A program made the position numbers and the translations under genes. From positions 62,001-126,000 of the forward strand of contig CP137877.1 of assembly GCA_034406715.1 (NCBI GenBank): a DNA stretch of 64,000 nucleotides, written 5' to 3'. The notes beneath the pieces were generated by a model. The model ran no database searches, was not told where the DNA came from, and worked only from the letters and a program-made list of their open reading frames with translations. Below are positions 3,888 to 52,625 of this stretch, one piece after another. Each line of letters opens with the position of its first letter. Positions within the stretch are counted from its first letter, which is position 1. The stretch is from Rhodotorula mucilaginosa. Taxonomy: Eukaryota > Basidiomycota > Microbotryomycetes > Sporidiobolales > Sporidiobolaceae.

Positions 3888-4044
3888 CGTGGCAGAGTCC
3901 AGTACAGCAGTTATAGCTTGGGGTAAGAGAGCTGTATACGTCGAGAGCCGCGAGTTTGACTTCTCGGCCGGAAGAAGGTCATTACAAGTGTCATCTCGCT
4001 CTTTCTCCCGACTGCGAGTGCAGCCCCGCATCCAGCTCTACGGG

Positions 4045-25506: not shown

Positions 25507-26867
25507 ATGCCTCGCCTGGAGGCATCCGACGCGCCGAATGCTGAAACGCGAGAGAATGCATCAGCCTCTACCTCACCGCCGGCACCGTCGCCCGTGCGCT
25601 TGATAGGACCACTCGTGCAGACAAGAACAACGGCCACGGCTGCAGCGTCAGGTGCGGCTCGCTGCTCGTGTGCCGTCGTGTCCGCGTGAACCTCAGTTCT
25701 TTCAACATCTCCCCTGACCTTTGTCGAGGTCTTCTTCAAGCAGGTGCAGGTGCAGGTGCAGGTGCAGACAGCAGCAATAGCCGGCCGATTCCGATACCGC
25801 AAGCGCCTACGGGACGGCTGCGGACTTCTGCCCTCGCCGAACTCGTTGCGCCCACCCCTCCTCGTCGTTGGACAGCCATTGGCAGCGCAAAAGCCAAGTC
25901 CAGGTCGCTCGACGCGACTCACGGCCAGATCGCAAAGTCTTCTGTTGCTGGCGATGCTACGGAAACCGAGGCACCGACGTTCACGCGCGGCGACGAACGG
26001 GCCTCGAAGAAGCGCAAACTGGACCTTCAAGCGGACACGCTCCGCGCTCAGAACTCCGCTATCGAGCAAGATGCCTCTACCAAACCGACAGCTACAGACC
26101 TTCGGCAAGCAGCTCGCGAAACCTCGGGTCAAATCAATGCGCAGAAACGTACGTAAAAGGGCGAAAGACGGCACGGGATTTTCCCTCCGGCGACAACTGA
26201 TGAGGTCCGGCCACCTTTGCACAGCCTACGACTTTACGCTTGCAGAAGATGCTCTGCTTCTCGCCCTTTACGATCAAGCCTGTGACGCGTCTGCTCAATC
26301 TCCCAGCTTCACCGTCAACAGCGAACCTCCCGCTCTGAACTGGAAGGAGCTCGCCCGCGATCATTTCAGTCATCCGAACCGCTCGCAAAAGAAGCTTGCC
26401 AACAGCATTCTGCCAGAGCGCTTGGATCACTTGAAGGGACGGAGGTGGTGGCTCGCTGAGAGGGCGAGAGCCTATGCCATGTTGGAGGAATCGGTCGCTG
26501 CTGCTCGCGAACGGCTTTCAGCTGCCGGAGCTTCTGCATCAGAGGTGGGCACGAACCAACAGGTACGCCTTATTCCCATCCGACGCCTGAATTGATGGAG
26601 GAGAGTGACGTGCCCCCAACTCGCGAGCAGGAGACCTCCTTGCCTCGCGAGACGGTCTCGCCATCGCCGAAGCCTGCGATTGCAACCTCGGCAGATCCTA
26701 CCGATTCCTCGATGACTACGACGCTGCTCTCGACGCACCAAATTGCTATCCAGCCTCTCGACCCGTCAAGCATGATCGACTATTGCGAGGAGATGAAAGC
26801 TATCGCCGCGCGCTTGAAAAGCAGGAACATGAAGAAGCGCTCGAACTCTGCTGCCGGCGAAGAGTAG
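25507..26867 (+). CDS. array gene C1: Myb/SANT-like protein
   Basis: Exons 25507-25651, 25741-26148, 26225-26562 and 26631-26867 encode 375 aa. The start, all three junction phases (1, 1, 0) and the stop match paralogue C2. Exon 3 holds the best domain: YDFTLAEDALLLALYDQ, then LNWKELARDHF, then ERLDHLKGRRWWLAERARA, a three-helix Myb/SANT-like or trihelix-like layout with F/W core residues. Exon 2 is Ala/Gly-rich, then basic with RASKKRKLDL (possible nuclear signal). The C-terminal exon ends LLSTHQIAIQPLDP..MKAIAARLKS. Likely nuclear DNA-binding protein; target unknown. I cannot place it in a named family. Confidence 0.68.
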
Positions 26868-27236
26868 CGCACGCTGGAGGACAACACGCTTGAGCTTGAC
26901 GGTAATGCTTGATCATGTGTAGAATGTCGTCTCTTCTTATCCCGCTTTGCTATGCACATGCAGTGTTGTCGTTTCGTCGGTTCCAGAGCGATCCGCTCCT
27001 CGCAGGAAGCTGATCGAGCCTTTTCTCTTGTTCTCGCTTGTGTCTAGCTCGGATGCGATCTTTGCTCGCTCCGATTGCATCAACCGAGCTTTCGACTCGT
27101 CGCTGCAGTCTCCAAGCCTGGGCAGAAAAGGCGTCTGGTTCTGCTTCTTCTCTTTCTCCGACCTCGACTTTCAGACTTGCGACTAGTCTCCGTCGTGAGC
27201 AGCAGAGACTTGCTTTGGCGCATTCTACTCGATCTC
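26868..27236. other. C1-C2 spacer
   Basis: 369 bp. The first part resembles the 3' flank of C2 (ACGCTGG, GCTTGA, ATGCAGTGTTGT words in the same order at 28630-28735), so the 3' flank was duplicated with the gene. Confidence 0.5.
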
Positions 27237-28628
27237 ATGAGCAGGTCATTCCAGCTCCCTCCGAAGGCACAAGTCGGCGCGCACCCTGCTGGAGATGACA
27301 CCGCATCGGCATCGGCGTCGACCTCGACGCATGTCACGCCGCTGATGCGCCTCATAGGATCAGCAGCGATGCCTGATCCGTCCCTGATACGCTTGGCCGG
27401 GCCACTCGTGCAGGCGGGAATACCGACTTCCGTCGCAGCGCCAGGTCCGTCCGTCCGTCTCGCGTGCACGGTTCGGTCGACATCTCTCTGACTTTCCATC
27501 TGCGCGAAAGCTACTGTCGACAAGCGGTCATCACCGAATTTGACTGTATCTCCAAGACCGTCCACCTCCGCTGGACCAGAGCCGTCATTGGCACTTTCAG
27601 CAGCGCGTGGTGACGGCCCGAAACGGCGCAAAATCAAGTTGGTGTACGACTTGATCGCCAAGGCTAGCTTGAGCAGGATCCCACTCGTGAAAGAGAAGCA
27701 GCAGGTCGTAAAGCCAGCTGCTTCGACAGACAAGGGGGCAACGAAGCCTTCCCCGAAAGAGTCAAGCGACGACGGCCAGGTGCCGAATCCAAACAAACGG
27801 CGCCGGACCAACCCGCAACCCGCTCAGAGTGTCGCTGAAGGAGAAGACCGCAGCAACGAGTCCAGCGCAGTGACAGCTACTCGGCCGAAAGATCCCGCAA
27901 CTGCGCGCGGCGAGAAGAAAGGTGCGTAGTGGATCATGACAGTCGAGGATTCGCCTCTCGGGAACTGATTCAAACCGTATCCAATTGCACAGCCTACGAG
28001 TCCGCTCCTGCCGATGCTGCTCGACTCCTCGCAGTGTCAAATCAAGCTTGCGCTGCATCTGCGGACCCTTCGAGCTCGACCGGCGACAACGCCACTGTTT
28101 CCCTCGACTCGCCCGAAATCGCTCACGATCGTTTCCGACAAGCAAACAGTCTTCAAAATGGGCTGACCGATGTCGAATTGCAAGAGCGCTTGAATCATCT
28201 GAAGGGGCGCAGGCTCTGGGTAGCCAAACGGGCGAAATCGCACGCCGAGCTCGATGAATCGACAGCGGCGGCGCGCGCGGGGCGTGAGAAGGACGGAGCT
28301 TCGGCAGCACTGGAGGGTACAGACGAACAGGTGCGTCACATCCAAGGCCAAGTCTTGACCCAGCGGGGTAGTGACGCATCCGCATTGCGAGCAGAAAATC
28401 CTGCCTCCGGAGACGCTGCCGCCACCGTCAAAGCCGGCGATTACACTCTCCGCAGAAGCTACCGCCGAGTCTGCAACGACCATGCTGCTCTCGACGCACC
28501 AGATTGCTGTCCAGCCTCTCGACCCGAAGTGCGTGATCAACTCTTGCGAACAGATGAATGCCATCGCCGCGCGCTTGACGAGCAGTAAGAAGAAGAAGCG
28601 CCCAATCTCTACTGTCGAGGAGCAGTAG
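27237..28628 (+). CDS. array gene C2: paralogue of C1
   Basis: Exons 27237-27444, 27511-27921, 27993-28330 and 28395-28628 encode 396 aa. Exon 3 is exactly 338 nt in both C1 and C2. Exon 1 shares the R-L-x-G-P-L-V-Q segment with C1. Exon 2 is divergent and basic (DGPKRRKIKLVYDLIAKASL, NPNKRRRTN). In exon 3 the first helix has decayed relative to C1 (YESAPADAARLLAVSNQ instead of YDFTLAEDALLLALYDQ), while the last helix LQERLNHLKGRRLWVAKRAK is kept. Exon 4 is closely similar (LLSTHQIAVQPLDP..MNAIAARLTS, then a poly-Lys tail). A tandem duplicate under fast divergence; DNA binding by the changed module is uncertain. Confidence 0.66.
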
Positions 28629-29279: not shown

Positions 29280-30093
29280 ATGAGCAATATTAGCACGGCG
29301 GGATCCGACTCGGAGGTTAACGACTCCGGTGCGTTCTGGTCCGACTTGGTTCTACTTGCTGGGCGGTGGCGCATACCACCGCGTACCATACTCGGACGAC
29401 CTCGGACTGACTTGGAGACACTTGTCGGACATACCAGATGTCGAGATCGTCAGTCAGTCGAAACCGAGAAGCGTAAGCGGAGCGAGGTGGACCGAAGCGG
29501 AAGAAAAAGCTCTGGTCGGGCTGGCGAAGAACCGCGACTTGGACTGGCAAGAACGCGCTGAGGGCCTCGGCAAGCTCGGATACGGGTTGAGGACCGCGCG
29601 TGCGCTGCAGGACCGCTTCCGACTCATTCAAGCTCGCGAATCGGACGACGAGGACCAGGATGGGGAAGGACAGAACGCTCGTAACCAGGCGGTCCAGAAG
29701 CACAGTGAGTGCATTTACAAGCTGATTCAGTTGGATCTCAGAGCGTGAGGGCTAAAGCAGTCGACTTTGTCTTCCATAGAGGGAAGGCGCGGCCGGAAGA
29801 GTCGTCCCTTCACCGCCAGCGAGGACGGCGCTCTGCTCGCCATCTTCAACTCGGTCGCCGAGCACGCCGCCGCGCACCGCTACGCGAAGCAGTGCATGGA
29901 CTGGCCTCAGATCAAGGACACGCTTGATGAGGTCGCAGAATCGGAAGGGGAGGGGGAGGCGCACAGCAAGGCGCAGCTTCAGGCGAGGCTCGGGCAGTTG
30001 AAGAAGGAGAAGAAGCGGTTCAAGGAGCGGATCGAGCTCTGGAAGGAGAGTGGGGAGAGCCAGGAGCAGATGAGGGAGAAGCTGGGCTTGTAA
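29280..30093 (+). CDS. array gene D1: two-module Myb-like protein
   Basis: Exons 29280-29328, 29438-29704 and 29780-30093 encode 209 aa, both introns in phase 1. Exon 2 encodes a Myb/SANT-like module beginning ARWTEAEEKALVGLAKNRDL and ending LQDRFRLIQ (W..E-E..L, then a recognition-helix-like ARALQDRF). Exon 3 encodes a second, longer module: SRPFTASEDGALLAIFNSV, CMDWPQIKDTLDEV, then a charged helix LQARLGQLKKEKKRFKERIE. The second module has the same plan as exon 3 of C1/C2, linking families C and D. Probably a small nuclear DNA-binding protein. Confidence 0.68.
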
Positions 30094-30882: not shown

Positions 30883-31884
30883 ATGAGCGACGCTCGCAGG
30901 TCTTCCAAGCGGGCCCATCCCGAGAGTGACGAGGAAGACAGCGATACCGGTACGTTCTTGCCTCGATCCCGATCACTTCTCGTCAACTTGTCTATTTCAC
31001 GGTGTTCCAACACCCGGACGAGCTCGGACTGATGCGGACCCGCTTACTTGAGGTTATAGAAATCGAGATCGTCCAGCCCAAGAAGCAGCCTGGTGCGCGG
31101 CAGATGTGGACCCTCGCGGAGGACAAGGCACTTTCGGCGCTCATGGAAGACAAGGAGCTGGACATGGACGACCGCGCCGACGCTATGGCTGCTCAGGGCT
31201 TCGTACAACGGTCGGGGCATGCCTTGGGGCAACGATGGTCCAAAATCAAACGTCGCAAGCTCACACCAGAGCAGGAGAAGAAGATCGAGGCCAAGGAGCG
31301 CAAGGCGGCCGCGAAAAAGGCCAAGAAGAACAGTGGTGAGTAGGCCATGGTCCTCCCTTCGCCCATTCTTGACTTTTGCATGTGGCTGACAGCCATGTAT
31401 CTTGTGTGTACCAGAGAAGGAGAAGAAGGTGGCGGCCAAAGAGCGCGACGCGGCCAAGGACAAGGCGAAGAAGAACAGTGGTGAGTCGGCTGTAGTCCTT
31501 GGTTGGCCCATTCTTGGCTTCTGAATGTGGCCAACAGCCCTGTATCTCATGTATACAGGTCCGGCGAACGGCAACAAGGACGCTACGAGTCCTTTCACTC
31601 TCGAGGAGGAAGGCGCTCTCGTCGCCATCCACAACAACGTCGTCGAGAAGGCCTCGCAGAGTCCGTACGGCAAGCCGGACTACGACTGGGACAAGATCGA
31701 GGTCGCGATGGCCGAGATGGCGGCGGAAACGGGGAAGGGCAGCCCTCGCTCGAAGGAAGTCCTCCAGCGCGAGATGGCCCGCCTCGTGGGGAGGAAGGTC
31801 GAACTCGGTCGAGCGCAGGAGCGCTTGAAGCAGGTCGAAAAGAAGGCGGAGGACAAGGACTTGATGAAGAAGCTTGGCATCTAG
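30883..31884 (+). CDS. array gene D2: Myb-like protein with a duplicated linker exon
   Basis: Exons 30883-30949, 31060-31335, 31415-31480 and 31559-31884 encode 244 aa, all introns in phase 1. Exon 2 starts with the first module (ARQMWTLAEDKALSALMEDK..GHALGQRWSKIKRRKL) and ends with a Lys/Glu/Ala helix AKERKAAAKKAKKNS. Exon 3 (66 nt) repeats that helix as AKERDAAKDKAKKNS, and the introns after exons 2 and 3 are themselves related. Exon 4 holds the second module: SPFTLEEEGALVAIHNNVV, YDWDKIEVAMAEM, LQREMARLVGRKVELGRAQE. Same layout as D1. Likely nuclear. Confidence 0.7.
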
Positions 31885-32885: not shown

Positions 32886-34071
32886 ATGCTGCTCAAGTCG
32901 TTCCTAGGTGCGTTCGGAACAGTCACCCGCTCCTGACCCCCTCGGACTGACCCGCCCACATCCCGCCAGTCCCGCTCGCGGCGTTGCTGCTCTCGTCCTC
33001 GACGACGACGTCGGTCCTCGCCCGCCCAACTGCGAGCCCGACGCCCGACGTCGAAGCGCACATCAAGTTCCCAGACTCGAACCCCTTTGGACGTGCGTCT
33101 CCCTCCCGCTTTCCCCGGTCTCGTCTCGACGTGGTGCTGACTTCGGAGAGAGCGCCCCGCAGGTGTGACGAACGGCAACTCGAACAACTTGCTGCATGTC
33201 CGCGTGCAGAACCATGCCGATCACCCGATCACCATCTTGCGCGTGAGGGGTCAGTTCAGGGAAGCGACCGGCAAGGAGAGACCCCTCCGAGAGGTGCGTC
33301 AACGCCCTTGCTTCCTCCCTCCCTCCCTCCTTAAGCCCCGCGTTGACCGCGACACACGCATAGACCACGACGATGCGACTCGGCATGCCCGTCTCTCCGA
33401 AATCGAAATCGCCGTTGATCCCGTACCGCTTCCACTCGGAGAACAAGATCGGTGACGTCGGCCTCCGCGTCTGGGTCGACTACAACGATGCCGTAAGACA
33501 GGTAGTATTCCCTTGCTTCTGGGATACATTCCGTGGCTGACTTTGTTGGTGCCCTCCCCCGCAGAACAACAACTTGCACTCGGTATTGGGTTACGACTCG
33601 ACCGTCACGGTCGGTGAACCCAAGTCGTCGTGGTTCGACCTCGAGCTGTGAGTTTCCCTGCGCTCTTTTATCCCGGTGCCTCTCTTCTGCGTGTCCACGT
33701 TGGCTGATCTAAACATGTCGACGCCCAGCCTGTTCCTCTACGTCCTCCTCGGCGGTCTCTTTGCCGGCGTCGCCTACTTTGTCTACACCACCTACTTTGA
33801 CCCCTCCCTCTCGCTCTCCCCCTCCTCTTCCAAGAGCGGCAAGAAGGCTTCATCCGCGTCCGGATCTGGCCGCCCGAGCGCCGTGACTGCCAAGTCGTCG
33901 TCGATCGTCGACAACGTCACGGGCGAGAAGAGCAAGGTCGATGAGAGTTGGGTGCCGGAACATCACCTCCGTACGAGGGGCAAGAAGGGCCCTGGAGGGT
34001 ACGCGAGCGCGGGCGCGACGAGTGGAGAGGAGAGTGAGGGTGGGAGGGGGAAGAAGGGGAGGAGGCAGTGA
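32886..34071 (+). CDS. IRC22: IRC22 / TRAP-alpha-like ER membrane protein
   Basis: Six exons, 32886-32907, 32970-33092, 33163-33293, 33364-33492, 33565-33647 and 33729-34071, encode 276 aa. The N-terminal MLLKSFLVPLAALLLSSSTT is a signal peptide, with likely cleavage after VLA. The lumenal beta domain has LLHVRVQNHADHPITILRVRG, IPYRFHSENKIGDVGLRVWV and STVTVGEPKSSWFD. One membrane span (LFLYVLLGGLFAGVAYFVY) precedes a Lys/Ser-rich cytosolic tail. This is the plan of translocon-associated protein subunit alpha and yeast Irc22, which sit at the ER membrane. A single-copy gene unrelated to its neighbours, lying between array families D and A on the same strand. Confidence 0.85.
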
Positions 34072-34483: not shown

Positions 34484-35512
34484 ATGACCATCACGTTGCT
34501 GTCTGGTCCTCCGACGGCCCTCTCGCGGGAAGAGTTGGCGTCCATCTCGACTTTTACTCCTTCGACGTTTGAAGGGATCGCGCCCTTGACGCGGCACCAC
34601 GAACCGAACGGAGTCAAACTCAGGCTCGAGCCTGCTTTTGAAGGATTCAATGGCCAAGGGCTCGAAGGAGGACTGTGGATCACCGAGGGGTGAGTTTCGT
34701 CCGTCCGTCTTTCCTCCTCACCGAGTCTGTCCGCCAAACTGATCTAGGTTAACGACTCATGTCCGCCAGCGCCCTGTCCTTCTATTCTGAATCAACCAAC
34801 AAGGGAATCTCGCTCCCCTACCCGCATATAACCCTACACGCCATCTCGCGAGACGCACCACCTCCCTCACCCGCGCGCTCTTCAGCAAACGGAGGAGGAG
34901 AAGCAACGACGTCAACAACAACGGCGGCGTGCATTTATTGTCAGATTGAAGAGAGTGAAGGTGAATTGGAGGATACGGAGGGGATGGAAGAGAGCGGGAC
35001 GAGGGAGATGTGGATCACGCCGAGCGATCCGGAGAGTGGTGAGTTCTGCTTTTACTCAACAAGGGGGGGGGGATCCTCCATCTCCTTAGTCGGCCGGAAA
35101 TCAGTCCTCTAGCAGGGCGCTCCCCCCCTACAAGATCGAGGAAAGGATTACATCAATACTCACCGAATGGCCTTTTCTCTCTCTCGCAGTGGAAAAGATC
35201 TTTTCCATGTTGTCCTACTGCGCCTCGCTCCACCCGGCCGAAACCGACCCCACTCCCTCATTCATGAACGCCAACGCCGACGGGGACGGCGACCCTCAAG
35301 CCTCCCTCTTTGCCTCGATGGGACTCGACCCTTCCTCGATGGTCTTCTCCAACCCGGACGGCTCGCTCGGAGGACCGGGATTGGCAGCCATGATGGAGCA
35401 GTTTGAGAATGGCGCAGAAGGAGGACAGGAGGAGGAGGCGGTGGTGAGCAGCGCGGGGAGGCAGAGGAGCGATTTCGTCAATGAGGGGAGGGCGCGCGGC
35501 GCACCGTATTGA
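34484..35512 (+). CDS. pICln (methylosome subunit, CLNS1A/Lot5-like)
   Basis: Exons 34484-34689, 34770-35038 and 35190-35512 encode 265 aa with consistent phases. The PH-like fold of pICln is visible as WITEG/ALSFYS, ISLPYPHITLHAISRD, CIYCQI, then REMWITPSD and VEKIFSMLSYCASLHP, followed by an acidic/Gly C-terminal region. Known role: Sm-protein chaperone that presents substrates to the PRMT5 methylosome during snRNP assembly. The family is usually single copy. Like the IRC22-like gene it is embedded in the array without being part of it. Confidence 0.8.
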
Positions 35513-35880
35513 GGCCACGGTTCCGGTCGGTCGAGGGGAGCGGACTCGTAGAGTTGAGTGGTAATATAACTATCGTCATGATCTTTGAAGGTAGTCCTGA
35601 GGAGAACTATCTGCAGTGAGTTCAGTCTTTTCTCCCTTCTTGACCTGCCTCCTGCTTTCCGGAGAATTCAGACCTGACCTAATCGTATTCTCTCTCAGAT
35701 CACACTCCTAAAGGTTGAACTGGTCTCGAGCGCAAGTAGCTATAGATCGCGTACGGGCTTGTGACAGGAAACTCCGAACGAGTCCGCGGCGACGTCTCTC
35801 GGCGAGACTCCTGTTTCCTCCTCCACCTTGCTCTCGCCTTTCAAGCTACCGACTGAAGTGCGACGAGGAAGTCAGGAAGT
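35513..35880 (+). promoter_or_regulatory. A1 leader region with putative leader intron and conserved box
   Basis: Possible leader intron 35616-35698 (GTGAGT, CTGACCTAAT branch, CTCAG). TATAG at 35741. Conserved box GGAAACTCCGAACGAGTCCG at 35767-35786. The same three parts precede A2, A3 and A4. Confidence 0.55.
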
Positions 35881-38800
35881 ATGGACTGGCTCGAGACCTG
35901 GCGCGATTCCTGGTCGACGGGTAGCGCCACCGCTGCTTCTTCGTCGTCGTCGCCGCCGTCGTCAGAAGGAGCGCCGAACGCGAACGACGACACTCGCGCC
36001 GCCGCTCCAGAGAATGGTGCGTACTCGGCCCCGCCCGCAGGAATCAACTGTGTCAGTGTCACTGACCCCTGCTTGCCGAGGTCGCAGGGAAGAAGCGCAA
36101 GCACAAAATCGCCACCGCCGCATCATCGCCGTCGGAAGAACCGAGGCGTACGAAGAGGGTCCGCAAGCCGACTGCAGGTACGATAGACTGCTATAGGTTT
36201 GCGCGCACCGCGGCGCCGCTTTCGCTCATTCGCGCCGTTTGCCCGTGCGTCAGCTCTCGCCGAGTTTCGGATCGAGCTCAGCACGCGTCGAAACCGCACT
36301 GGTCTGCGTCCCGACGACGACGCGGGTAAGCAGACTGCCAATGGTCTTTCTCGACGTGTCACCGAAGATGGGCTGATCAAGGCTCCCCGGTCCGACAGGC
36401 GGCGACTCTGAACAGCTTCTCATCCCAACGAGGCGTGCCCGTACTCGTGTCCGCCAAAGCACTGTCTCCGGCGACGAACTCAGCACGACAACTGCCGAGT
36501 ACGCTTTGAACCGGTACTCGACGAGGACAAATCCTGCACTCGTCGGCGACGACGTCGTTTTCGGGACGAGCGAGAGCGGGAACACGATGCTGCAAGTCGA
36601 GGAGACGGCGGTGGGAACCTTGAACCAGCGGAAGCAGCGAAGTAAGTTCATTGCCGTCATCAGGCCTACGCCACTGTGCACCTCAAGCTGACTTGACCGA
36701 GTTTCAACTACATGGGAAAGTTCTCTGGACGCCGGCCGAAGACGCCCGACTCCGCACTGCCATACTCACCTTCGCTGGACTCGACCCCACCACCACCGAT
36801 ATCAGCGTCGGCCACGTCAAGGTGAAAACCTCCGAGTGGCCCGAGGTGAAGCGGATCTTCGACGCTCTCGCTCCTCCAGAATCAGCGGCGTCCGGCCCGC
36901 CCCGATCGGTGCATTCGCTCCAAGGCCACTTCTACACGGCGCTGTTGCGTCGAAGTCAGCGAGCCCCTCCCGTCACTGTACCGGCCGAAGCTGGACCGTC
37001 ACCATCCGGCTCGCACTCGCCCGTCTCGCCCGCACCGTCTTTGAGCGCTGTCGGTAGCTCGTCGGCCACACCCGGCACCAACCTCGTCGAGGAGGCTCCT
37101 CAGCGCGCGGATCGCTCGGCGACCGACTCTGGCCAAGATGAGAGGCGCGAGGAGTCTGCACCGCCGAACCAAGCAGTCGCGGTCGAATCGTTCGACTCCG
37201 CCGCTGCCACTGCTTTCTTTCCTGGGTCAGATGTTCCGATGAGCGGCTCGTTGAGGCTCGAAGACGTGCTCACTGCTTTGACGACTGCCGGTTCGGCGAC
37301 CGCGCCGGCGACCACGTCGTCTCTGGATGCTGCAGCAGCGCAACCGGGCAATCTGGACAGCTCGACGCCGCGTCCCGGACATTCGGACGCAACGCTGTCA
37401 CCGGAGGAGCATGGCCATCTTACTGGACATATCCCCGGCGCAGAAGGTTCCCCCGAAGCAGCGGATGGTACGAACTTCGGCAGATCGCAGGAGCCGAATC
37501 CGACGAGCGAGGCGGGTGGGACGCCCGAGGCTGGCACCAGTGGAGCGGTGGGGACAGGTCTCACTCCTCGTAAGCACGCTTTTCCTGCGACGGACTTGAG
37601 AAAGAGAACACAAAAGCTGATGGCGTCAATGCCCTTTTTCACTCGAAGCCGGAAATGTCAACTCCGCTTCGAGTGCGTCCGCGGGCAGTGGAGCACAGCC
37701 TGCAGGCACTGGAGGGAAAGCGACTGGGTGAGCTCCGAGGGTGGGAGCCTCGCGACAAGGCCCAACCGGTCAAAACCAACTCACGTCGGTCGACTTGCTC
37801 TTCGCTTCCGCAGGTGCTTTACCGCGGCCGAAGACGCCCGTATCATCGAGCTTTTCGACTTGGGAACGCCCCAGATACATATCGCTAGGGCTCTCAACCG
37901 GACGTCTTACTCGCTTTACGGGCGAGTCGCAATCTTACGCCAGCACGGATTGCTCTCGAAACCGCAGCCTCGGAAACAGCCTGCCCTTGGCGCCAGCGTC
38001 CCCTCGACCGATCCATCTCCGAGCGCTGTGACGAAGAACGCGCAACAGGCCGTCGCAGGCTCGAACCACTCGGCGATGATTCCCGCCTCGAGCTCGAGCA
38101 TGATAGTCCCGAGCAGCCAGGCGCGTGTCGACGACCCGCCGGTCGGACCCAGCTCCACAAAACCCAACCCTGCCGCGCCGAAGAACGGCCCGGACAAGAA
38201 GGCAACGGCACCCAGTAAGTTTTCGCCCGCCCGAACTTTCCCAACGAGTTGAACGAGCCGAGCTGACAACCTGCGCCCCTTGTCCAGAGCGCTTCTCGGC
38301 AGAGGAAGATCAACAAATCGTCGAGCTCAGAGCAAGCGGGATTGATTGGCAGATGATTGACTCCCGCCTCCAGCGGACGAAGGCGGCTTGCAGGCAACGT
38401 TACGCTCGCTTGAAAGAAAAGGCCCAACTTGCAGGAAGTGAGCCCATTTCAGTTTTTGAACGTTCTAATCGCTTACAGGTATTGACTCACACAAGCTTCG
38501 TAACGCAGAAGATCTGTCCTCTTTTGTACAATTGCCGAAACCAGTAGCAGCGGGAGGTCAGGCCGGCGAAGCCTTCACCGCGCCGCCTCCGATTTCTTCC
38601 TCCGGCCCAGCAGCCCACCGCCACCACCGCTCCTCTTCCTCCGTACACGGTCGAGGACGACTCCATCATCCTGCGCATGTACTTGCAGGGTAACTCGGCG
38701 GAGCGGATCGGCGTCGCGATCAAGCGCTCTGGGTTCAGCGTTCATCGCCGTTGGAACAAGAAGAAAGATGGGTGGATCGCTGCGGGTGCGTTGCTGATCT

Positions 38801-39386: not shown

Positions 39387-39787
39387 GCAGAGAGGAGGGG
39401 GGTCGTGCAGGAGGAGGCGCTTGGCTTGAGCGGGGGATTAGTTGAGTGGTGGTCGTTGGTGGGTGTAATCGCTTGTGCTTGAAGCTGATGTTTGAAGCCG
39501 TTTGAATGATGCAGTGAGTCTTTCCCCGTTTTCCTCCCTTTTCGACGATCCGCAACCTGACCAAAGGCATGTACCTTCGCTTGCAGATTACGCTTTGAAC
39601 ATGACTTTGCCGGCTTGGAGGATATCGCTATAGGCCGAAAGACCGCCTACGGTTTCTGCCGGAAACTCCGGAAGAGTCCGCGGAGCCGTCTCATCAAGAC
39701 TCCTTTTCCTTCTCCATCGGCGGAATCGACTCGGTCTCTCCTTGCTACTGACGGAAAGGACACGCTGACCCCAACGGGTCACGTCCC
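39387..39787 (+). promoter_or_regulatory. A1-A2 spacer with A2 leader elements
   Basis: 3' flank words GGCGCTTGGCTTGAGCGGGG are shared with the A2 3' flank. Putative leader intron 39514-39586. TATAG at 39629. Box GGAAACTCCGGAAGAGTCCG at 39661-39680. Confidence 0.55.
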
Positions 39788-42073: not shown

Positions 42074-42462
42074 GTGGAAAGAAAGAAGAGGTCGCGGAGA
42101 TGGAGGCGCTTGGCTTGAGCGGGGGCTTAGCTGGATGATTGGTGGCTGTTGTTGCTTGTGCTTGATGTTGTCGTTGCGAAGAAGGCTGATGGAATCATGC
42201 AGTGGGTCTTCCGCTGTTCTCTCTTTTCAAGCAATGACAATTTGACAAAGACTGTACCACTCCTTGCAGATTACACTTCTAACGGACCTTGGCCAGCTTG
42301 ACGCACATCGCTATAGACAAAAAGACCGCGCACGGTCCGTGCCGGAAACTCCGGAAAGGTCCGCGGATCCATTGCCTCGTCGAAACTCCTGTGCTTCTTG
42401 TTCCGAGTTTCAGTCTCCTCCACCGCGCCGAAAGCCAGCTCGCTCTCCCTGCGCACGACAAC
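42074..42462 (+). promoter_or_regulatory. A2-A3 spacer with A3 leader elements
   Basis: 3' flank shared with A1. Putative leader intron 42202-42269. TATAG at 42312. Box GGAAACTCCGGAAAGGTCCG at 42343-42362. Confidence 0.55.
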
Positions 42463-43311
42463 ATGGCAAAGAAACGCACCGCAGAAGAGCGTGCCGCTCA
42501 CTCCAGGCACCACGCTACCTGGAGGAAGCGAGTCCGGGCAGAGGCAGACGCGGCCAAACCAGCCGAAGAGATGTCGGAGCGACTGAAAGCGCTGTACGCG
42601 GTCGCACCGCGTATCGGGCCGGACGGCAAGCCTCTCACGGATCACACCAGGCGTGACGAAGCGACGTCAGGTACGCCGGCGAGGAGGTCACGGCTGTCGT
42701 CTGCAACTACGCCACCGACGTCGACACCGCCGCCCCCGGACCAAGCTCCTGCGACGGCAACGGCGACGGCGGGAAAGGTGAGCTTGGACGACATGGCCAA
42801 ACTAATGCTTAGAGGCGTGCTCACGCCCGAAAGTTGTCTCAAGCTTCACAGAGACGAAATTCCCAATCAGCCCGTCGCCGCAGTCACGACAGCGCCTCCT
42901 CTCGGCCCTTTCGCCGATCTGCGCACTTCGTATGCAAGTACAGCTATTGCCCAGCCAGACACGCAGATCTCGACTGGCTTGTCCGCCTCGTCCGTTCCTC
43001 TGCCGCGACCTGAAACGGCGGAAAACGACTTGGGCGGTTTCGACGCCTCGTTCTTTTTGAACGAGGACATCAATCCGACTCTGGCTGGCATCCAGACTGG
43101 CGCGGGACCCGGTAGTGCGAGCGAGGTGCCGCCTCCGCAGCCGCAGATCCAGGACTCAACGCAGGAATCGGTAGCCCCGAGTCTCGGATCGTGCCAAAAT
43201 TCGCCACTCGTCCCAACCGCTTCGGAGCAGGACTCTTCGACGCCTCTGATAACGGCTGAAGATATGCTTGCCACTGCCATGCCGCATTTCAGTCCGGCAT
43301 GCAGGGTTTAA
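42463..43311 (+). CDS. array gene A3: truncated A-family member without HTH modules
   Basis: A single open frame of 282 aa. The N-terminus MAKKRTAEERAAHSRHHATW is unlike A1/A2 and strongly basic and helical. From LTPESCLKLHRDE onward it follows the last exon of A1/A2, including NDLGGFDASFFLNED and QNSPLVPTASEQDSSTP. The C-terminal motif is disturbed: after AMPHF the frame is shifted by one base relative to the paralogues and ends at PACRV, so the GMxGLxRFLRLV motif is read only in another frame. No Myb-like module is present. It could make a dominant-interfering short protein or be a decaying copy. Confidence 0.5.
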   Translation: MAKKRTAEERAAHSRHHATWRKRVRAEADAAKPAEEMSERLKALYAVAPRIGPDGKPLTDHTRRDEATSGTPARRSRLSSATTPPTSTPPPPDQAPATATATAGKVSLDDMAKLMLRGVLTPESCLKLHRDEIPNQPVAAVTTAPPLGPFADLRTSYASTAIAQPDTQISTGLSASSVPLPRPETAENDLGGFDASFFLNEDINPTLAGIQTGAGPGSASEVPPPQPQIQDSTQESVAPSLGSCQNSPLVPTASEQDSSTPLITAEDMLATAMPHFSPACRV

Positions 43312-43608: not shown

Positions 43609-45218
43609 ATGTCCTCGAGGGCTTCGCCCGCTGTGCTGCCGGATCCGAAACGCCCTCGCTTGCTTGCTTCCGGCGATGAAACTTCCTCGACGCCTGCCGT
43701 CCCTTCTGCCGCGCCGAGTAGTTCTAGTGCCAACTATCCCAACCTCGTCCCCACCCCGATTCAAGCAGTCGCGACTCACGGGCGCAGTGAGTGGCAAGCA
43801 ACTCCCAGAACCCCTCCCCCGCAACATCGCACGCAGCTGATGATGACAAACATTTCCGCATCTAGTCTCGCACCTGGCCATGCAGACGGCGTCGAGCAGC
43901 TCATCACCACCGAAAGAAGCGCGACCACACGCAGATCCGGCTGCGCAAACTTCGTACCCTCCCTCGTCGTCAACCAGCTCAAGCCTGCCTCCGCGACCCG
44001 AGTCGGGGCCCCGAGTGACCGACGCAGATCGCAGAGGCATCATTGCATGCCTTCGAGCAGTCATGCCGGACATCGTCATTGCTGCATCGTTGGATCGTAC
44101 ACCCCGGGAGATCCAAAACGAGATCTTCGACTTGGTGCGCGCGCACGAACACGGTCAATCGAACCACAAGCTTTGACCATCATGACGAGGCCGACTGATT
44201 CTCCTATCAACAACAGATATGGCCACTGGCCCGCAAACGCTACCCTCATACACGCCGGAGGATTACAGGCAACTCCTGAAAATGCATCGCCGCGGCGAAA
44301 GTGCCGAGAGAATCGCACTTGTCCTACATCGGACCACTAGCAGTATACTCAATCATTTTGCGAAACAAAAACCCATTTGGCAGGCCGCCGGTCAGTGGAG
44401 AAACCGACAGATCACAGATCAGGTCGTGGCCTCACCGCGTGCTGACGACTCCAAAAATTGCAGGCGAATGGGTCAAGCCACCAGCGCTTCGGCGCGACTA
44501 CCAGATCGACTACGACGAACGAATCAAGAAAGAGCTTGCGGGTCCAGCAAAAGAACAGGCTGCAGCGACCGCACAAGCTCGCCTCGCCGCCGTAGGGCGA
44601 CCCGCCAAAGTGAATCTTCTGTCAAAGTTCGGACGCTCGACCTCAGCGAGGGTCGTCGACTCGCGGACCAACCTGCCGACGGCCGCTCAGACCGTCGTCA
44701 TCTCCCCTCCGGTCCCTTCTAGTACGGGCTTCTCAGCATACTCGACAGCGGCGTCGCTCGTCCCGATCGCCTCCATCTCGTCCTTCTCGCCTGCACCTTT
44801 GCTCGTGACCAAGCCCGTTCCGACGAACGCGCCTCTGCCGTTGAGCGGCATTGAATCTCTCCCGATGAGCACGCCTTTGCCGGTCGCCGTCGGTCCGCCG
44901 CCGTTCGTGAAGCCGGTTCATCCGGCCGCCGAGCAGGCAGCAAGCTCGTCTCCTCCTCCAACACCCGCACCTGTACCGACAACTACAACTACCGCCGATA
45001 GTCTCGATCCGGACGTGTCCCCTCTCTCGCCATTGAGTGACGACTCGCCTCCCTCTCTCCCGCCAAGACTTCCCAACCCCGTCCCTCATCACGCACCGCA
45101 TATCCCGCTCTTACCTTTATGGTCTGATGCGCGCTACGAGCAGGGAATGTCGGGCTTGAAGCGGTTCCGGCAATTGATGGAGAACTCGCGGAGCAGCACA
45201 CGAGCCGCAGCTTCCTGA
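43609..45218 (+). CDS. array gene B1: two-module HTH-like protein
   Basis: Exons 43609-43786, 43866-44153, 44217-44390 and 44464-45218 encode 464 aa; all introns are phase 1. The N-terminus ASPAVLPDPKRPRLL is nearly identical in B1-B3 and carries a P-x-x-K-R-P-R nuclear-signal-like patch. Exon 2 ends with module 1 (VTDADRRGIIACLRAVMPDIVIAASL..RTPREIQNEIFDL). Exon 3, 174 nt in all B genes, is module 2 (YTPEDYRQLLKMHRRGESAERIALVL..TTSSILNHFAKQK), clearly related to M4 of the A family. Exon 4 starts with a charged helix (RRDYQIDYDERIKKELAGPA), has one copy of the PAKVNLLSKFGRSTS repeat unit and ends YEQGMSGLKRFRQLM. Confidence 0.72.
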
Positions 45219-45602
45219 GCCGTGCAAGGGCAGCGCTGGCTTTCTCTCTCCTCTCCTCCTTTATTATATGTCGTTGTATGCGTTGAAAATCTGTTGCCAA
45301 TCAATGTTCCTGAGCAAAGGAGTGCATGGGTCTCGGTAAGGACGTGACTTCTTCCCTTGCCGGCTTGTTGCCCTCTTTCTCTTCGGAATTATCCAAACCT
45401 GACTGTACTTTTACTTTCCGTCCAGGTTCCAGTACTCGACCTAGTCGACCTCCCGACTTGCTATAGACCGTGTGAATCACGTGCAATCTTGGACAGGAAA
45501 CTCCGGAAGAGTCCGCGGAGGTCGTCGCACCGAGACTCGACTCCTGTTCTTCGCCAGCACTTGCTCTTTCGCTCCCTGTGGAGCTACGCTTGTCCGAGCG
45601 AC
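45219..45602 (+). promoter_or_regulatory. B1-A4 spacer with A4 leader elements
   Basis: Putative leader intron 45336-45425. TATAG at 45462. Box GGAAACTCCGGAAGAGTCCG at 45496-45515, identical over these 20 bases to the A2 box. Confidence 0.55.
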
Positions 45603-48336
45603 ATGGACCCGCTCGAGATTGGCCGCGTCTCCACTTCGCTGCCCAACGCCGCCTCGCTGTCGTCGCCAGCGAGCGACGAGATGCTCGACCACGACGACGC
45701 CGATGGTGGCACCCGCGCGACTCGCACGAGCACCGCTGCTACACACAACGGTGCGCTTGCTGAGCCACATATGCTCAAGAGCTTCGACCTGGCTGACCCG
45801 CTGGCCAACCGCAGGCAAAAAGCGCAAGCTGCAGGCGGTCCAAGCCGAAGACGGCGGCGAAGAGAACGGACCACGGCGGATGGCGAGAGCCCGCAAACCT
45901 ACTGCCGCGAAGCAGAATGAGGGAACGGCCGGTCCTTCAAAGTCAGGCAGTGCGTTACCAGCCACTGCGTTGCTGTCCCCGTCTCCGATTTCGAGCTGAG
46001 GGTCCTGCATTCGTCCGCAGAGAATGTCCGGTGGTCGCCGGCGGAGGATGCGCGACTTCGCGCTGCAGTCTTTGCCTGCTCTGGAATCGGTCCCGCCACC
46101 AACAGCTCTGTGCCCATCAACCTGGGCACCTCCGAGTGGCCCGTGGTCAAGCGGGTCTTCGACAGCCTCGCCCTCACAGAATTTGCAGCGACGGCGACCC
46201 CCCGCTCCGTCGCCGCCCTTCGAGCTCACTTCGACTCGGTGCTGTCGCCTAAGATCAACAAGCCGCTCACGTCACCGCGCCGTCTGGACCTGGATCAGGC
46301 TCGTCCCTGTCCGCTTCGGGATCACCGATCTCGCTCACGCCGTCTCGGACGAGCGCTGCCGGCATGGTCGCGTTCGCGACTTTTGTTCCAGGTTTTCCAG
46401 TCTCGACCGCCTCGACCGAAGCTGAAGTTGCAGCAACGGCAGCATCGATTCAGCGGCCTCTTTCGCAAGTCGCAGCCGGCGTAGGAGGTTCCCCCGAAGC
46501 AGACGTGGGCAGGAGTTCCGGGAGACTGGATGGTTCGAAGGCGACGAGCGAGACAACCGACGCCCAAGAACCGGGCATTGTCGGGTCGGCGGCGGCTTCG
46601 AATGGCATCTCCGGTGAGAAGGCTTGCATCGTCCCCCGCGCAAGTCGGAAGAAAATCCGGACCTGACAGCTGAAAATGTCCCTTTCCGCTCAAAGCCGAC
46701 GCCTCCGGGTCCACTTCGACTACGCTCGTGGCAGGCGGAGCGCAGCCTGCAGACTCTACACCTCGAGTGACTGGGTAAGCCAGAAAGGGTCGCAAATCCA
46801 ACCAAGGTCCAGAAGTCTGATGTCCGCTCTGCAGAGCTTATTCGGCGACGGAAGACGCCCGGATCATCGAGCTCTTGAAATCGGGAATGCCCCAAACACA
46901 TGCCGCCAAAGCTCTCAACCGCTCCTCCACCTCGGTCCATCAGCGAGTCGGCATCTTACGCGATCGCGGACTCATCTCGCGGCCGCTTCCTGCTCCTTCT
47001 CTCGTTGCTGCGCTCCAGAATGCGCAACAGACCCTTACCAGCGCGAGTCAATCTCCGTTCGAGCGCTTCTCGAGCGTGGCGGTACCCAGCACTCAGGCTG
47101 CTGTCGACCACCTGCAAGCTGGGGCGAGCTCCGCGGCAGCCACTGCTCCGCAACCGAAGTTTCAGGACCTCGAGGCGGCGAAGCACAGTAAGTTGTTTCT
47201 CCACTTGCCTCCATGGCCGACACGCGAGCTAAAGAGTTTTGTCTGTATGAAGAGCGCTTCTCGCCGGCGCAAGATCGGCAGCTGGTTGCGCTCAGAGCGA
47301 GCGGACTCTCGTGGGACGGAATCGCTTCTCGCGTCAATCGGACGAAGCAGAGCTGCAAGTCACGCTACTCGAATCTCCGAAGGCAGGCCAAACCCGCAGG
47401 AAGTGAGCCGGCTTTCGTCTCCGTTGCTTGCATCGCTTCATATTAACTCGGACAAATAGCTGCAGGAGATTCGTCATCGACCACGCAACCGAAAGCTGCA
47501 GTAGTGGGAGGTCCAGCATTCAGCTCGCCACCTCCGACTGTCTCTACTCCGGTCCAGTCTGCCGGCATGATTGCTGCTCCACCTCCGTACACGGCCCATG
47601 ACGACGCCATCATGCTTGGAATGTACCTGCAGGGTAACTCGGCAGAGCAGATCGGTACCGTGCTCAACCGCTCTACTTACAGCGTGCAGCGCCGGTGGAC
47701 CCAGAAGCGAGACGACTGGATTGCTGCGGGTGCGCCGCCACACTCTTGCGCTCGAAGCGTAAAAGACTGACTTACCTTGCTTGAAGGCGTTCTTACCGCC
47801 GAATGTCGTCTCAAGCTTCACAGCGACCAAGCCCCGGTTCAGCCCGCCGTCTGAGCCACGACCGCGCCTCCTTTCGACCCTTTCGCCGATCTCCGCGCTG
47901 CGTCAACCGTTCTCACGACCACCCAGCACAATGTGCAGAGTTCGACTGGCCCGTCTGCTTCAAATCTGCCTCTGCCGGAACTCGAACAGGCGGAAAACAA
48001 CCTGGGCGGCTTCGACGCTTCTTTTTTCTTCAACGAGGACCCGCCATCGAATCGACCCTCCCCGATGTCAGCGCCGAGTCAACACTCGGTACAGCAACTG
48101 AGGTGCCGCCTCCGCGGCCGCAGATCCAGGTGCCGCCGCAGGAATCGCTAGCCGCCACTTTGGGCTCGTGTCAAGAGTCGCCACTCGTCCCGTCCGCTTC
48201 GGAGCACGACGCGTCAACACCCGAGATGGCGACTGAAAGGATGCTCGCCGAAGCCATGCCGCATTACGATTCCGGCATGCAAGCTTTGAACCGTTTCCTG
48301 CGTCTCGTTACAGACGGGGGTCAGAAGAAGCGGTGA
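45603..48336 (+). pseudogene. array gene A4: four-module A-family copy, decayed
   Basis: The A1 plan is recognisable throughout: first exons 45603-45750 and 45815-45949 (GKKRKLQAV..ARARKPTA), M1 VRWSPAEDARLRAAVFAC..SEWPVVKRVFDSL, M2 YSATEDARIIELLKSGMPQ..RVGILRDRG, M3 RFSPAQDRQLVALRASGLSW..SCKSRYSNLRR, M4 YTAHDDAIMLGMYLQG..STYSVQRRWTQKR and the tail ending MPHYDSGMQALNRFLRLV. Compared with A1 and A2 it has a frame break after M1, an in-frame stop early in the last exon (after QAPVQPAV) and another frame break after FFFNED. It is therefore most likely dead, although the HTH region downstream of M1 is still open. It pairs with B2 as the second A-B duplication unit. Confidence 0.65.
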
Positions 48337-48623: not shown

Positions 48624-50990
48624 ATGTCCTCGAGGACTTCACCCGCTGTGCTTCCAGATCCGAAACGCCCTCGCTTGCTCGCTCCCGGCGATGCAATTCC
48701 CTCGACGCCCGCCGTTCCTTCAAGCGCGCCCAACGCCCTCGCTCATGCCAACTACACCGGTCGTGTCCCCGCCCCGACTCAGGCGGTCGCCTCTTGCGAG
48801 CGTAGTGAGTAGCGATCCAAGTCAGGAAGTTCCGCTCCTGGGGAAAACTGATCATGACAAGCATTGCCGCCTACAGCTTCGTACCCGGCCACGCAGAAAG
48901 TAACGGCTAGTTCGGCGCAGTCCTCGTCAGATTTGAGACCGCACGCTGCGGGAACGTCGTACCCGTCGTCCTCATCGTCCAACTCCGTCCAGGCTCGGCC
49001 GAGCAGGTCGGGCCTCTATTTCACGGACGCGGACGACAACAATCTCATCACTTTCCTTGGAAGGGGACTGCCGGACATCGTCATCGCTGCATTATTGGAC
49101 CGAACGCCCCAGGAGGTACAGAGGGAAATTCGGTGTCGGATGTTCTGGCACGATGGGGGTCAGTCACTCCACGTGCTCGGACCGATTCCACGCGACCTGC
49201 TGACTCCTTTACTGGCAACAGATATGGCAGACGGTCCGCAAGTGCGACCCGCATATACGCCGGAGGATTACAGGCGACTTCTCAAAATGCACCGCTGCGG
49301 CGAGAGTGCAGAGAGAATCGCACTTGTCCTCGGCCGGAGTACGAGCAGCGTCATCAATCACTTTCGGAAGCGCAAACCTATCTGGCTTGAAGCAGGTGAG
49401 TGAAGATAACGGCGGCTCGACTAGTGTGGCGTGCGCTCACCCTCTGGCACCGTCGCAGGCGAGCAAGTGGAGCCAGAATGGATTTTACGTGACAAGGACA
49501 TCGACTACGACGACCGGATCCAGAGAGAGCTCGCGAGCTCAGCCGCAGACACGGTTGCCAAGATCGCAAAATCTCACCTTTACGTTGTCCCGCGACCCGC
49601 TCCGTCGATTCCGAGCGGATCTCCGTCGACGAGCGGAAGTTCGCTCCAGGCGGGGACCGCAAAGTCTGCGGAAAATTCGGGAACCACAATCGCCAAGCCG
49701 CTCTTGCCGGATTTCAAGTTTGGCAAAGATGCGCCAGCTCCCCGCTCAACTGCGTCATCGAAACCCTCTCGACCGCCACCTGCCATGCCGCTCTCGCCGC
49801 AGTTCAGATTTGGCAACGATGCGCCAGCTCCTCCCCGCTCGAGCGCGACCGTTCCGACCCCGACCCCGACCACCGCTGCCGCTGCCGGACCGCCTAAAGT
49901 GAACCTCCGCACGAAGCTCCGACTATCAACCTCAACAAGCGTTGTCGACTCGGCGGCGAACCTTCCAGCTGGCGCTCACGATGCCGCCTCTGCACCCGCG
50001 CCACCCTGCAGTACGGGGTTCTTGACCAACTCGACCCGCGCTACCGTTCCGCCCAAAGTGAATCTCCACTTCAAGCTCGGACAAGCAACCCCTACGAGCG
50101 TCGTCGACCCGCCGATCACACTCCCAGCTCCGGCTCGCACCGCCACCACCCCCTTTGCACCTGCGCCCGTGCCTTCGAGTATTGGGTTCTCAGCCTACTC
50201 GACCGCAGCTGCCGCCCCGCCTAAAGTGGATCTCCGCGCGAAGCTCGGACGACTGAACTCGACAAGCGTTGTCGACACGCAGAAAGACCTCCCGGCTCCG
50301 GCTCGCACCGTCGCGACCTCCTCTGCATCCGCGCCCGCCAGTACAGGATTCTTGGCCAACTCGACCTGCGCTGCGGCACCGGCCCCGACCGCTGCCGCAC
50401 CGCCGAAAGTGAAACTCCTCACGAAGTTCCGACCACCAAGCTCGACGAGCATCGTTGAGCCGCGGAAAGAGCTCCCAGCTGCCGCGCGCACCGTCGCCGC
50501 CTCTCCTGCAACCGCGCCCGCGCCCTCCAGTATAGGGTTCTCAGCATACTCGACTGCAGCGTCGCTCGTCCCCATCGCCTTCAACTCGTCCCTCCCACCT
50601 GCACCCTCGCTCGTGACCAAGCCCGTTCCGACGAGCGCGCCTTGGCCGACTGCCGCCGCTCCTGCGCCGTCGCCCGTGAAGCCGGTTCTTCAGGACGTCA
50701 AGCCGGCAGCGCATCCGGCTCCTCCACCAGCACCGACATCTGCACCTATACCAACAATTCCTGCCGACCCGGACGCGTCCTCTCTCTCGCCAATGAGCGA
50801 CGACGATTCGCCTCCCTCCCTCTCGCAAAGACTTCCCAACCCCGTTCCGCATCACGCACCGCATCTCCCGCTCTTACCTCTATGGTGTGACGGACACTAC
50901 GAACAGGGGATGTCTGGCTTGAAGCGATTTCTGCAGCTGGTCGAGGGATCGCGAAAAAGCAGGACAAGAGCGTCGACATCGTCTTCCTGA
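48624..50990 (+). CDS. array gene B2: HTH-like protein with expanded tail repeats
   Basis: Exons 48624-48804, 48877-49158, 49222-49395 and 49459-50990 encode 722 aa, all introns phase 1. Module 1 is FTDADDNNLITFLGRGLPDIVIAALL..RTPQEVQREI (about residues 105-150); module 2 is YTPEDYRRLLKMHRCGESAERIALVL..STSSVINHFRKRK (155-212). The last exon begins ILRDKDIDYDDRIQRELASSA, has two copies of an F-K/R-F-G-K/N-D-A-P-A-P unit near residue 300, then four repeats of about 55-60 aa beginning P-P-K-V-N/D/K-L (356-585), against one in B1 and none in B3. It ends HYEQGMSGLKRFLQLVEGS. The tail is Ala/Pro/Ser/Thr-rich and probably disordered. No lesion seen. Confidence 0.72.
49890..50570 (+). repeat. four intragenic repeats of about 160-183 bp in B2
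   Basis: Units start near 49890, 50050, 50217 and 50400 with CCGCC(T/G/C)AAAGTG. Each encodes PPKV-x-L..KL/KF..TSxVxx..LPAxA..GF(L/S)xxST. Unit boundaries are approximate. Confidence 0.8.
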
Positions 50991-51234
50991 CCCGGGGACC
51001 AGGAGCGCTGGCGTTCTCTCCTCCCTTTTCTATATGTCGTTGTATATGTTACAAGCTTATTGCAATCATTCCTGTCAAACGAGCTTGCGGTTTCGGAACG
51101 GAACTTTTTTTGCCCACGACGACGACGATGGACGACTCCGAGAGCTCTCGATACTTGTACCACGACTACAACCTTTGCTTGTCCCCGGATAGCTTGACAC
51201 TCCAAGAAGCTGCTCGCTCTCGAACTGCCTGACC

Positions 51235-52625
51235 ATGTCCTCAAAGGCTTCGCCCGCTGTGCTCCCGGATCCGAAACGCCCTCGCTTGCTTGCTCCCGGC
51301 GATGAAAGTTCTCCTACGCCTTCCGTGCCTTCCGTCGCGTCGAATGGCCTCGCGCGTGCAAACTACACTGGTCGCGCCCCCGCTCACGCCCCTGCCCCGA
51401 GTCGAGTACCCGCAAGATACGAACGAGGTGAGCGACAACTCGAGTTTTCCGAGCAGAGCTAACACTGATAATAAGCTTCCTCGTCCATAGCCTCATATCC
51501 AGCTACGCAAAGGGATCCAGCTTCTCAGAGGGTACAAGGCAGCTTGGCGCAATCTTCATCAGCGTCACGCACACCGACAACTTCTACCGCGACGTTTCCT
51601 CCTCCGCCGTCATCTTCGACCAGCTCCAGTGCCCTGCCTCCGGCACGCAAGTCAGGCCTGCCTTTTACCGACATGGACGACATAGAGATCGCGACTTACC
51701 TTCGTGCAGCTCTTCCGGACACCGTCATCGCTGCGTTGATGGAGCGGACGCCTCAGGAGATTCAGACTCGGATCTCTCTCCTGATACGGAGGCACGAACA
51801 CGGTCAGTTGCGTTTGCACGCTCTGACCCGAAAATGAAGCAGGACCGCTCAGTCCTCTGTTACCCCTAGGTATGGCTAAGGGTCCGCAAATGCGACCTCC
51901 TTACACGGCAGAGGATTACGAGCAACTTTTGAGAATGCACCGCAACGGCGCAAGCGCCGAGAGGATCGCACTCGTCCTCGATCGAAGTACCAGCAGTGTC
52001 ATGAGTCACTTCATGAAGTACAAGCCCATCTGGAACGCAGCCGGTGAGTCGCAACGGCGCGAAAGAATGCGTTCTCGAGATGAATCTCTTTTCCTCACCG
52101 CTTCACTGTCATCTTGGTCACACAGGCGAACGAGTCGAAGCACCCACGCTCTTGCGTGACAACAAGATTGACCACGATGAACGCATCAGGACAGAGCTTG
52201 CAGGACCAGCGGCGGCTCTGGCTGCCCAGATTGCGCAGGCTCGCCTCGTTTCGGACGCAACCCGACCTCCGCCGCCGCCGACGCAGAGCAAACTGCCAAC
52301 AGCGTGCGCCAATCCGCCACTCGCGGAAACGACAAAGCCTGCAGGTATGCCGACACCACCGCTTGCGCAAGTGTCTCTTGCCCAGCCGCCGCTCGCGTCC
52401 GACGCTTCCGGTATTCCGAATGTGCCCGCCGTCTTGCCATCGAGGAGCGACAACTCGACACGAAGTGTGCCCGACAGCCTCGTCCCTCACCATGCAGGCC
52501 ATCTCGATCACTTGCCTCCATGGCATGACGAGCACTACGAGCAGGCAATGTCTGGTTTGAAGCGGTTCCTGCGCTTGGTCAAGGGTTCGCGGTCGAGCAG
52601 GACACGGTCAGCCTACGATACCTGA
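51235..52625 (+). CDS. array gene B3: HTH-like protein without tail repeats
   Basis: Exons 51235-51427, 51491-51802, 51870-52043 and 52126-52625 encode 392 aa, all introns phase 1. It has the same N-terminus ASPAVLPDPKRPRLL as B1/B2. Module 1: FTDMDDIEIATYLRAALPDTVIAALM..RTPQEIQTRI. Module 2 (174-nt exon): YTAEDYEQLLRMHRNGASAERIALVL..STSSVMSHFMKYK. The final exon begins LLRDNKIDHDERIRTELAGPA and passes directly to a short Pro-rich linker without the repeat units, ending HYEQAMSGLKRFLRLVKGS. Intact; the smallest B gene and possibly closest to the ancestral form. Confidence 0.72.

Follow-up and report, generated by a model that had tools for sequence, protein, structure and literature searches.

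A tandem array of divergent Myb-repeat genes in Rhodotorula mucilaginosa, variable at predicted base-reading positions

In this work, we describe an array of eleven gene units, grouped in families A, B, C and D, found in a 64,000-nt window of Rhodotorula mucilaginosa contig CP137877.1 (all coordinates are positions within the window), in which short modules are divergent Myb repeats, whose helix 3 varies most at the positions equivalent to those used by c-Myb to read bases. The explanation which fits best, and to which we give, as a whole scheme, somewhat better than even credence, is that families A and B, possibly joined by C and D, encode lineage-restricted nuclear DNA-binding regulators built on Myb repeats, the targets of the paralogues being in the course of diverging. 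Such proteins would bind DNA via their short repeats, of which B and A2 have two and A1 has four, set in chains that are mostly disordered, and a conserved C-terminal helix would probably dock a partner common to the members. The array was not found described in titles and abstracts on Rhodotorula Myb proteins, tandem arrays and family expansion, or on JCM 8115, JG-1b and R. pacifica; new here are the variability pattern at the contact positions of helix 3 and a 23-bp element preceding all A copies.

Gene models were set via splice motifs and comparison among paralogues. The spliced models place all 11 units on the + strand, from 25507 to 52625, as the sequence-only reading had it, and eight of them (C1, C2, D1, D2, A2, B1, B2 and B3) have a continuous reading frame between ATG and stop codon, all their introns being of the GT-AG type. 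The claim of a head-to-tail array stands as to the single strand, but the array is not continuous, because two unrelated genes, also on the + strand, interrupt it at about 32.9-35.5 kb: a TRAP-alpha gene (32887..34071, ends approximate; PF03896, E 6.1e-10 for a joined piece) and an ICln/Voldacs gene (34484..35512; PF03517, E 4.6e-23). Upstream of them lie, in this order, C1 (25507..26867; 4 exons, 374 aa), with one long SANT-like module recognized by eye, its paralogue C2 (27237..28628; 4 exons, 396 aa), found with the C1 query, D1 (29280..30093; 3 exons, 209 aa), with two Myb/SANT-like modules, and its paralogue D2 (30883..31884; 4 exons, 244 aa), found with the D1 query.

Downstream, the order is A1-A2-Afrag-B1-A3-B2-B3. 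A1 (35881..39386) features four modules, m1 (36723-36962), m2 (37815-37961), m3 (38290-38436) and m4 (38644-38784), followed by the C-terminal helix (39309-39359). A2 (39788..42073; 7 exons, 627 aa) contains m3 (40966-41112), m4 (41326-41466) and the helix (41996-42046), while Afrag (42463..43311) has an A-type tail and a different N-terminus, without a Myb module. The three B genes have 4 exons each and a common organization, with two modules and a C-terminal helix: B1 (43609..45218, 464 aa; m1 44015-44146, m2 44249-44389, helix 45132-45179), B2 (48624..50990, 722 aa; m1 49020-49151, m2 49254-49394, helix 50895-50942) and B3 (51235..52625, 392 aa; m1 51664-51795, m2 51902-52042, helix 52533-52580). 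A3 (45603..48336) is a decayed copy, in which m2, m3 and m4 are still open.

Common exon lengths, duplicated flanks and dead copies beside intact ones, all noticed earlier, were recovered in the models. Exon 3 measures 174 nt in all three B genes; A1, A2 and A3 agree in having an m3 exon of 150 nt, and C1 and C2 in having a module exon of 338 nt. Alignments show the duplicated flanks, with direct repeats spaced by about 2.68 kb (A1/A2) and about 5.0 kb (Afrag-B1 / A3-B2), and the genes would have multiplied by tandem duplication of an A unit and of an A-B unit. Introns are mostly in phase 1 (32 out of 35), and single-module exons can thus be gained or lost with the frame intact. Two copies are damaged: in A3, the frame changes in exon 3, is stopped by an in-frame TGA within exon 8 and changes once more after that, and Afrag stops early relative to the JG-1b protein. 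A1 is probably damaged too, by a frameshift between m3 and m4, being open only if an additional weak intron is placed there.

The kinship of the eleven genes, as originally proposed, holds for A with B, C1 with C2 and D1 with D2, but links between groups are weak. Paralogue matches are beyond chance (E 1.9e-31 for B3 versus B2 and 4.1e-42 for A1 versus A2), the B3 query matches the m4 exons of A (E 4.2e-5 to 0.0027), and the C-terminal helices of A and B align, and are found in the genome at A, Afrag and B copies only; judged from sequence, A and B are one family, sharing a module and this helix. Hhalign comparisons between the A/B, C and D groups gave E values of 0.003-0.034 and probabilities of 1.5-10%; a relationship of C and D to A/B is suggestive at most.

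The earlier statement that the modules belong to no named family does not hold for the short ones. A profile built from A m3, A m4 and B m2 matched c-Myb (E 4.9e-11), DMTF1 (E 7.6e-8) and also B-Myb, and A1 m3 scored 29.3 bits against PF00249, above the Pfam cut-off of 24.4; the match to c-Myb and DMTF1 identifies A m3, A m4 and B m2 as divergent Myb repeats. The claim is limited to this wording because regularly spaced tryptophans define classical Myb repeats, and at most of these core positions A m3, A m4 and B m2 carry Phe, Tyr or others instead. Outside these modules, D1 reached 24.6 bits against Myb_DNA-bind_4, under the cut-off of 27, a Pfam search of C1 gave no Myb or HTH match, and the A m1, C and D modules had no significant match among solved structures. 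B m1 weakly matched the module profile by hhalign (42 columns, E 0.0009, probability 23%), with no relevant match among solved structures.

The likeness to the repeats of c-Myb, B-Myb and DMTF1 (PF00249, PF13921), seen in the sequences of A m3, A m4 and B m2, may extend to the fold, as AlphaFold models of the array family show three-helix modules: m4 of the R. pacifica A protein is predicted as three helices with pLDDT 97-98, 571 of the 849 residues of the chain falling below 50. Comparisons of fold gave weak results. Unlike those of c-Myb and DMTF1, the array modules have shorter loops and, in several cases, Phe or Tyr for Trp, and lie on separate exons within mostly disordered chains.

c-Myb contact residues are treated in PMC3240579. 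In helix 3 of the array modules, the five equivalents of the base-reading residues of c-Myb rank as the top five of 14 positions in variability (exact p 0.0005, post hoc), and variability at the contact offsets is 0.71, versus 0.39 elsewhere (p 0.0002, post hoc). Nonsynonymous change follows the same pattern (pN 0.455 in the contact set versus 0.223 in the rest) and the synonymous rate is unchanged at contact positions (pS 0.51 versus 0.54). Contact residues differ among the array paralogues, whereas c-Myb and B-Myb agree at all 10 compared. The description of the genes as fast-evolving is appropriate for linkers and DNA-reading residues, with a qualification: paralogue dS of 0.62-1.39 indicates old genes, and omega, at 0.28-0.51 for whole genes and 0.12-0.17 for B m2, indicates constraint. 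Once duplicated, the genes would have retained the Myb scaffold and altered the base-reading face of helix 3, so that the paralogues most likely read different sites.

A variable helix 3 might also be expected if the modules were SANT-like domains of chromatin factors, binding proteins or histones and having lost DNA reading. We consider this unlikely, since c-Myb and DMTF1 are the top sequence matches, helix 3 of A m4 is strongly basic, and variation lies on the reading face, rather than being spread over the whole helix.

In the 20-Mb genome, families A, B, C and D have significant matches at this locus only. Relatives in databases were sought with the A and B families; among the matches listed, the named ones come from R. 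mucilaginosa JCM8115, Rhodotorula sp. JG-1b (one fused A-Afrag model and one B) and R. pacifica (one A) only, and no one-to-one orthologues in distant basidiomycetes appear. These observations sustain the notion of a lineage-specific, probably DNA-binding family with copy turnover. m4 of A differs from its R. pacifica counterpart at 5 of 48 residues, the whole proteins being 38% identical. Between strains, B2 and JCM8115_002637 are identical at 720 of 722 residues, and the JCM8115 B1 model is without exons 2 and 3. B3 and its JCM8115 version differ at 25 of 267 residues; 14 of these differences fall inside 74 positions (Fisher p 0.0018, scan p 0.0097), and intron 3 also differs in this other version (read-through in P0006).

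A role in conflict, self-recognition or genome defence had been suggested. An arms race, with mobile elements or in self-recognition, would retarget both paralogues and strain versions, and copy turnover with damaged copies, the variable contact offsets and the divergence of B3, set against only two differences in B2, are indirect hints in this direction. However, omega at the contact set is not above 1 (pooled pN 0.455 and pS 0.51; 0.415 and 0.636 without A3), the paralogues are old, and the different intron 3 of the other B3 version fits a divergent haplotype or a conversion tract; we give this explanation a small chance of being correct.

The main known cases of quickly changing DNA-reading residues are, to our knowledge, C2H2 zinc fingers. 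KRAB zinc-finger and PRDM9-type arrays resemble the present one in tandem duplication, damaged copies and contact residues as the changing part, and contact residues changing faster than the scaffold, as observed here, are what a diversification of this kind predicts. The array differs from them in having another DNA-binding fold and no known partner domain or target, and in that no contact omega above 1 was found. Contact residues of KRAB zinc fingers are treated in PMC4351887. A system in yeast comparable to zinc-finger defence or PRDM9, but built on Myb repeats, in which phase-1 module exons are exchanged between paralogues or strain versions, the reading face is retuned and targets turn over fast under selection, is a speculative extension, to which we attach a low probability. 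If the scaffold is indeed kept while the reading face changes, the array would offer a small yeast system for studying the turnover of regulator specificity after duplication and the role of conflict in it.

The 23-bp element precedes all four A copies on the + strand, being exact before A2 (39661..39683) and A3 (45496..45518) and carrying 2 mismatches before A1 (35767..35789) and Afrag (42344..42366); the genome contains one further match with up to 3 mismatches. With this nearly identical element in common, the A genes are likely to be regulated together, and may regulate each other. Folding of the element with its downstream flank as RNA revealed no unusual stability in any of the four copies, so that an RNA element is not favoured.

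That the array is decaying and without present function, as the broken A3 and Afrag, probably A1, and the exons missing from the JCM8115 B1 model could suggest, seems very unlikely to us, given the open state of 8 of the 11 units, the low omega values of whole genes and B m2, the near identity of B2 across strains and the retained promoter element. Domesticated transposase-type HTH domains, instead of Myb repeats, are scarcely credible, as c-Myb and DMTF1 score far higher and the families are found at this locus only.

The hypothetical proteins of JCM8115, JG-1b and R. pacifica, deposited without function, are members of family A/B, and can thereby be assigned to a family and given gene models. 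A Zn2Cys6-like gene lies in the neighbourhood, and ten long open frames that surround the array yielded a single Pfam match, UBX.

The array of related genes on one strand, described in the sequence-only reading, proved to be real: spliced gene models resolve 11 units at 25507-52625, all on the + strand, with a TRAP-alpha gene and an ICln/Voldacs gene dividing the array in two. Eight of them (C1, C2, D1, D2, A2, B1, B2 and B3) are fully open, and dead copies do stand next to intact ones, A3 having decayed through two frame changes and one TGA. Afrag belongs to the A type but has no Myb module; it stops early, where its homologue from Rhodotorula JG-1b goes on to the conserved tail. To keep A1 open, a further 85-nt intron, whose donor is weak, must be admitted between helix-turn-helix-like modules m3 and m4; the gene is probably frameshifted, because its plain reading runs into stops and the JG-1b protein crosses the same linker without any. 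Phase 1 accounts for 32 of the 35 introns in the array models once A3 and the questionable A1 intron are set aside. Within exon 4 of B2 (49878-50487), a 100-nt unit is present four times, its copies being 71-75% alike and lengthening the disordered part, and the same unit occurs once in B1 (44589-44688); in D2, a 145-nt tandem duplication (31265-31547) spans both an intron and a lysine-rich piece of exon.

The window lies at 62001-126000 of contig C14, which measures 686 kb. Searches of the 20.35-Mb, 19-contig assembly with B, A, C and D queries led, among the best candidates scored, to the array locus, the exceptions being one B match (E 1.6) and one D match (E 1.7). All five genome matches to the C-terminal helix, a tail segment common to A, Afrag and B copies, fall at this locus, and ordinary Myb matches lie elsewhere. 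The protein database was searched with A and B queries: the B profile recovered 8 proteins among the best 8000 candidates by shared words (three from JCM8115, one from JG-1b and four others), the A alignment none among its best 8000, and A1 residues 615-790 matched 2 of 1085 candidates, from JG-1b and R. pacifica. JG-1b is grouped with R. mucilaginosa in PMC5691792; its protein 36011 is a B and 36012 an A fused with Afrag, and these numbers, together with contigs of equal stated size, suggest a single neighbourhood. The array represents real, lineage-restricted, divergent Myb-repeat proteins with copy turnover.

The locus had also been called fast-evolving, which fits the drifting linkers and the DNA-reading residues; the module scaffolds are constrained. 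By Nei-Gojobori estimates, dS ranges from 0.62 to 1.27 between B paralogues and is 1.08 between A1 and A2, 1.09 for the C pair and 1.39 for the D pair; paralogue omega is 0.28-0.51 over whole genes, and 0.12-0.17 in B m2. A1 shares 310 of 806 aligned positions with the R. pacifica A protein, yet differs from it at 5 of 48 residues in m4.

Change within the modules concentrates on the predicted DNA-reading face. Alignment to c-Myb fixed five helix-3 offsets, equivalent to its base-reading positions 128, 131/182, 132/183, 135/186 and 136/187. Over five module types, mean pairwise variability is 0.71 at these offsets and 0.39 elsewhere (permutation p 0.0002), and among the 14 positions of helix 3 they rank as the top five (exact p 0.0005). 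If the dead A3 is omitted, the values are 0.71 and 0.40 (p 0.0008 and 0.0005, respectively); restricting the set to the three well-assigned module types gives p values of 0.0017 and 0.0005, or 0.0059 and 0.0020 if A3 is also dropped. The excess holds against polar positions (p 0.0008) and, in whole-module comparisons of single modules, for A m3 (p 0.0003), A m2 (0.019) and A m4 (0.035), while it is not significant for B m2 (0.14) and B m1 (0.15). Equal variability is seen at three offsets that lie outside helix 3: -6, -26 and, past its end, +10. At contacts pN is 0.455 versus 0.223 elsewhere, with pS of 0.51 versus 0.54; without A3, pN is 0.415 versus 0.220 and pS 0.636 versus 0.548. One pair per module, hand-summed and rounded, gives a Fisher p of 0.0002. 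c-Myb and B-Myb, compared as a small control, have the same residue at each of the ten contact sites of R2 and R3. Using only the three residues named as key in PMC3240579 (K128, K182 and N183), p is 0.015. As the idea was drawn from the same sequences, the compared pairs share ancestry and omega at contact offsets is not above 1, this pattern shows where the changes gather, and is not evidence that selection drove them. Most probably, the array proteins are regulators that bind DNA and whose targets are diverging.

Upstream of A2 and A3 lies an exact 23-bp element, GGAAACTCCGGAAGAGTCCGCGG, present with two mismatches at A1 and Afrag. It starts 107-127 bp before the ATG and 21-29 bp after GCTATAG, and the flanking upstream regions of the four copies are much less alike. 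Only one further genome match within three mismatches was found (C11:573418-573440, three mismatches), and none appeared when the window was shuffled 100 times. Its two half-sites, ACTCCG and AGTCCG, ten bases apart, would suit a multi-module DNA binder. Upstream of B1 (43460-43496) and B2 (48478-48512), but not of B3, lie almost identical stretches, roughly 35 bp long and built around a CACGTG core, that are a candidate second regulatory element.

Comparison with proteins of R. mucilaginosa JCM8115 showed B2 identical to JCM8115_002637 at 720 of 722 residues, which makes the species R. mucilaginosa or a very near relative. For B1 the agreement is 297 of 310 positions, against a model lacking exons 2 and 3. 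B3 agrees with its JCM8115 counterpart at 242 of the 267 positions compared, and the sequenced genome is therefore that of a strain other than JCM8115. Of the B3 differences, 14 are clustered in a stretch of 74 positions that begins with m2, against 11 in the remaining 193 (Fisher p 0.0018 and scan p 0.0097); m2 carries six, with offsets +1, +5 and +7 accounting for three and contact offsets for two of these three. The JCM8115 version of B3 differs in intron 3 as well, seen as read-through in P0006, so that a divergent haplotype or a conversion tract has at least the same likelihood as point selection. A conflict reading of the array may apply.

Directly downstream of B3, a gene (53514-54056, + strand) has a cysteine pattern resembling Zn2Cys6 when judged by eye, and a Pfam search of its first 158 residues gave no match. 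Outside the array, an open frame at 3796-4953 contains a UBX domain according to Pfam (PF00789, E 5.9e-8).
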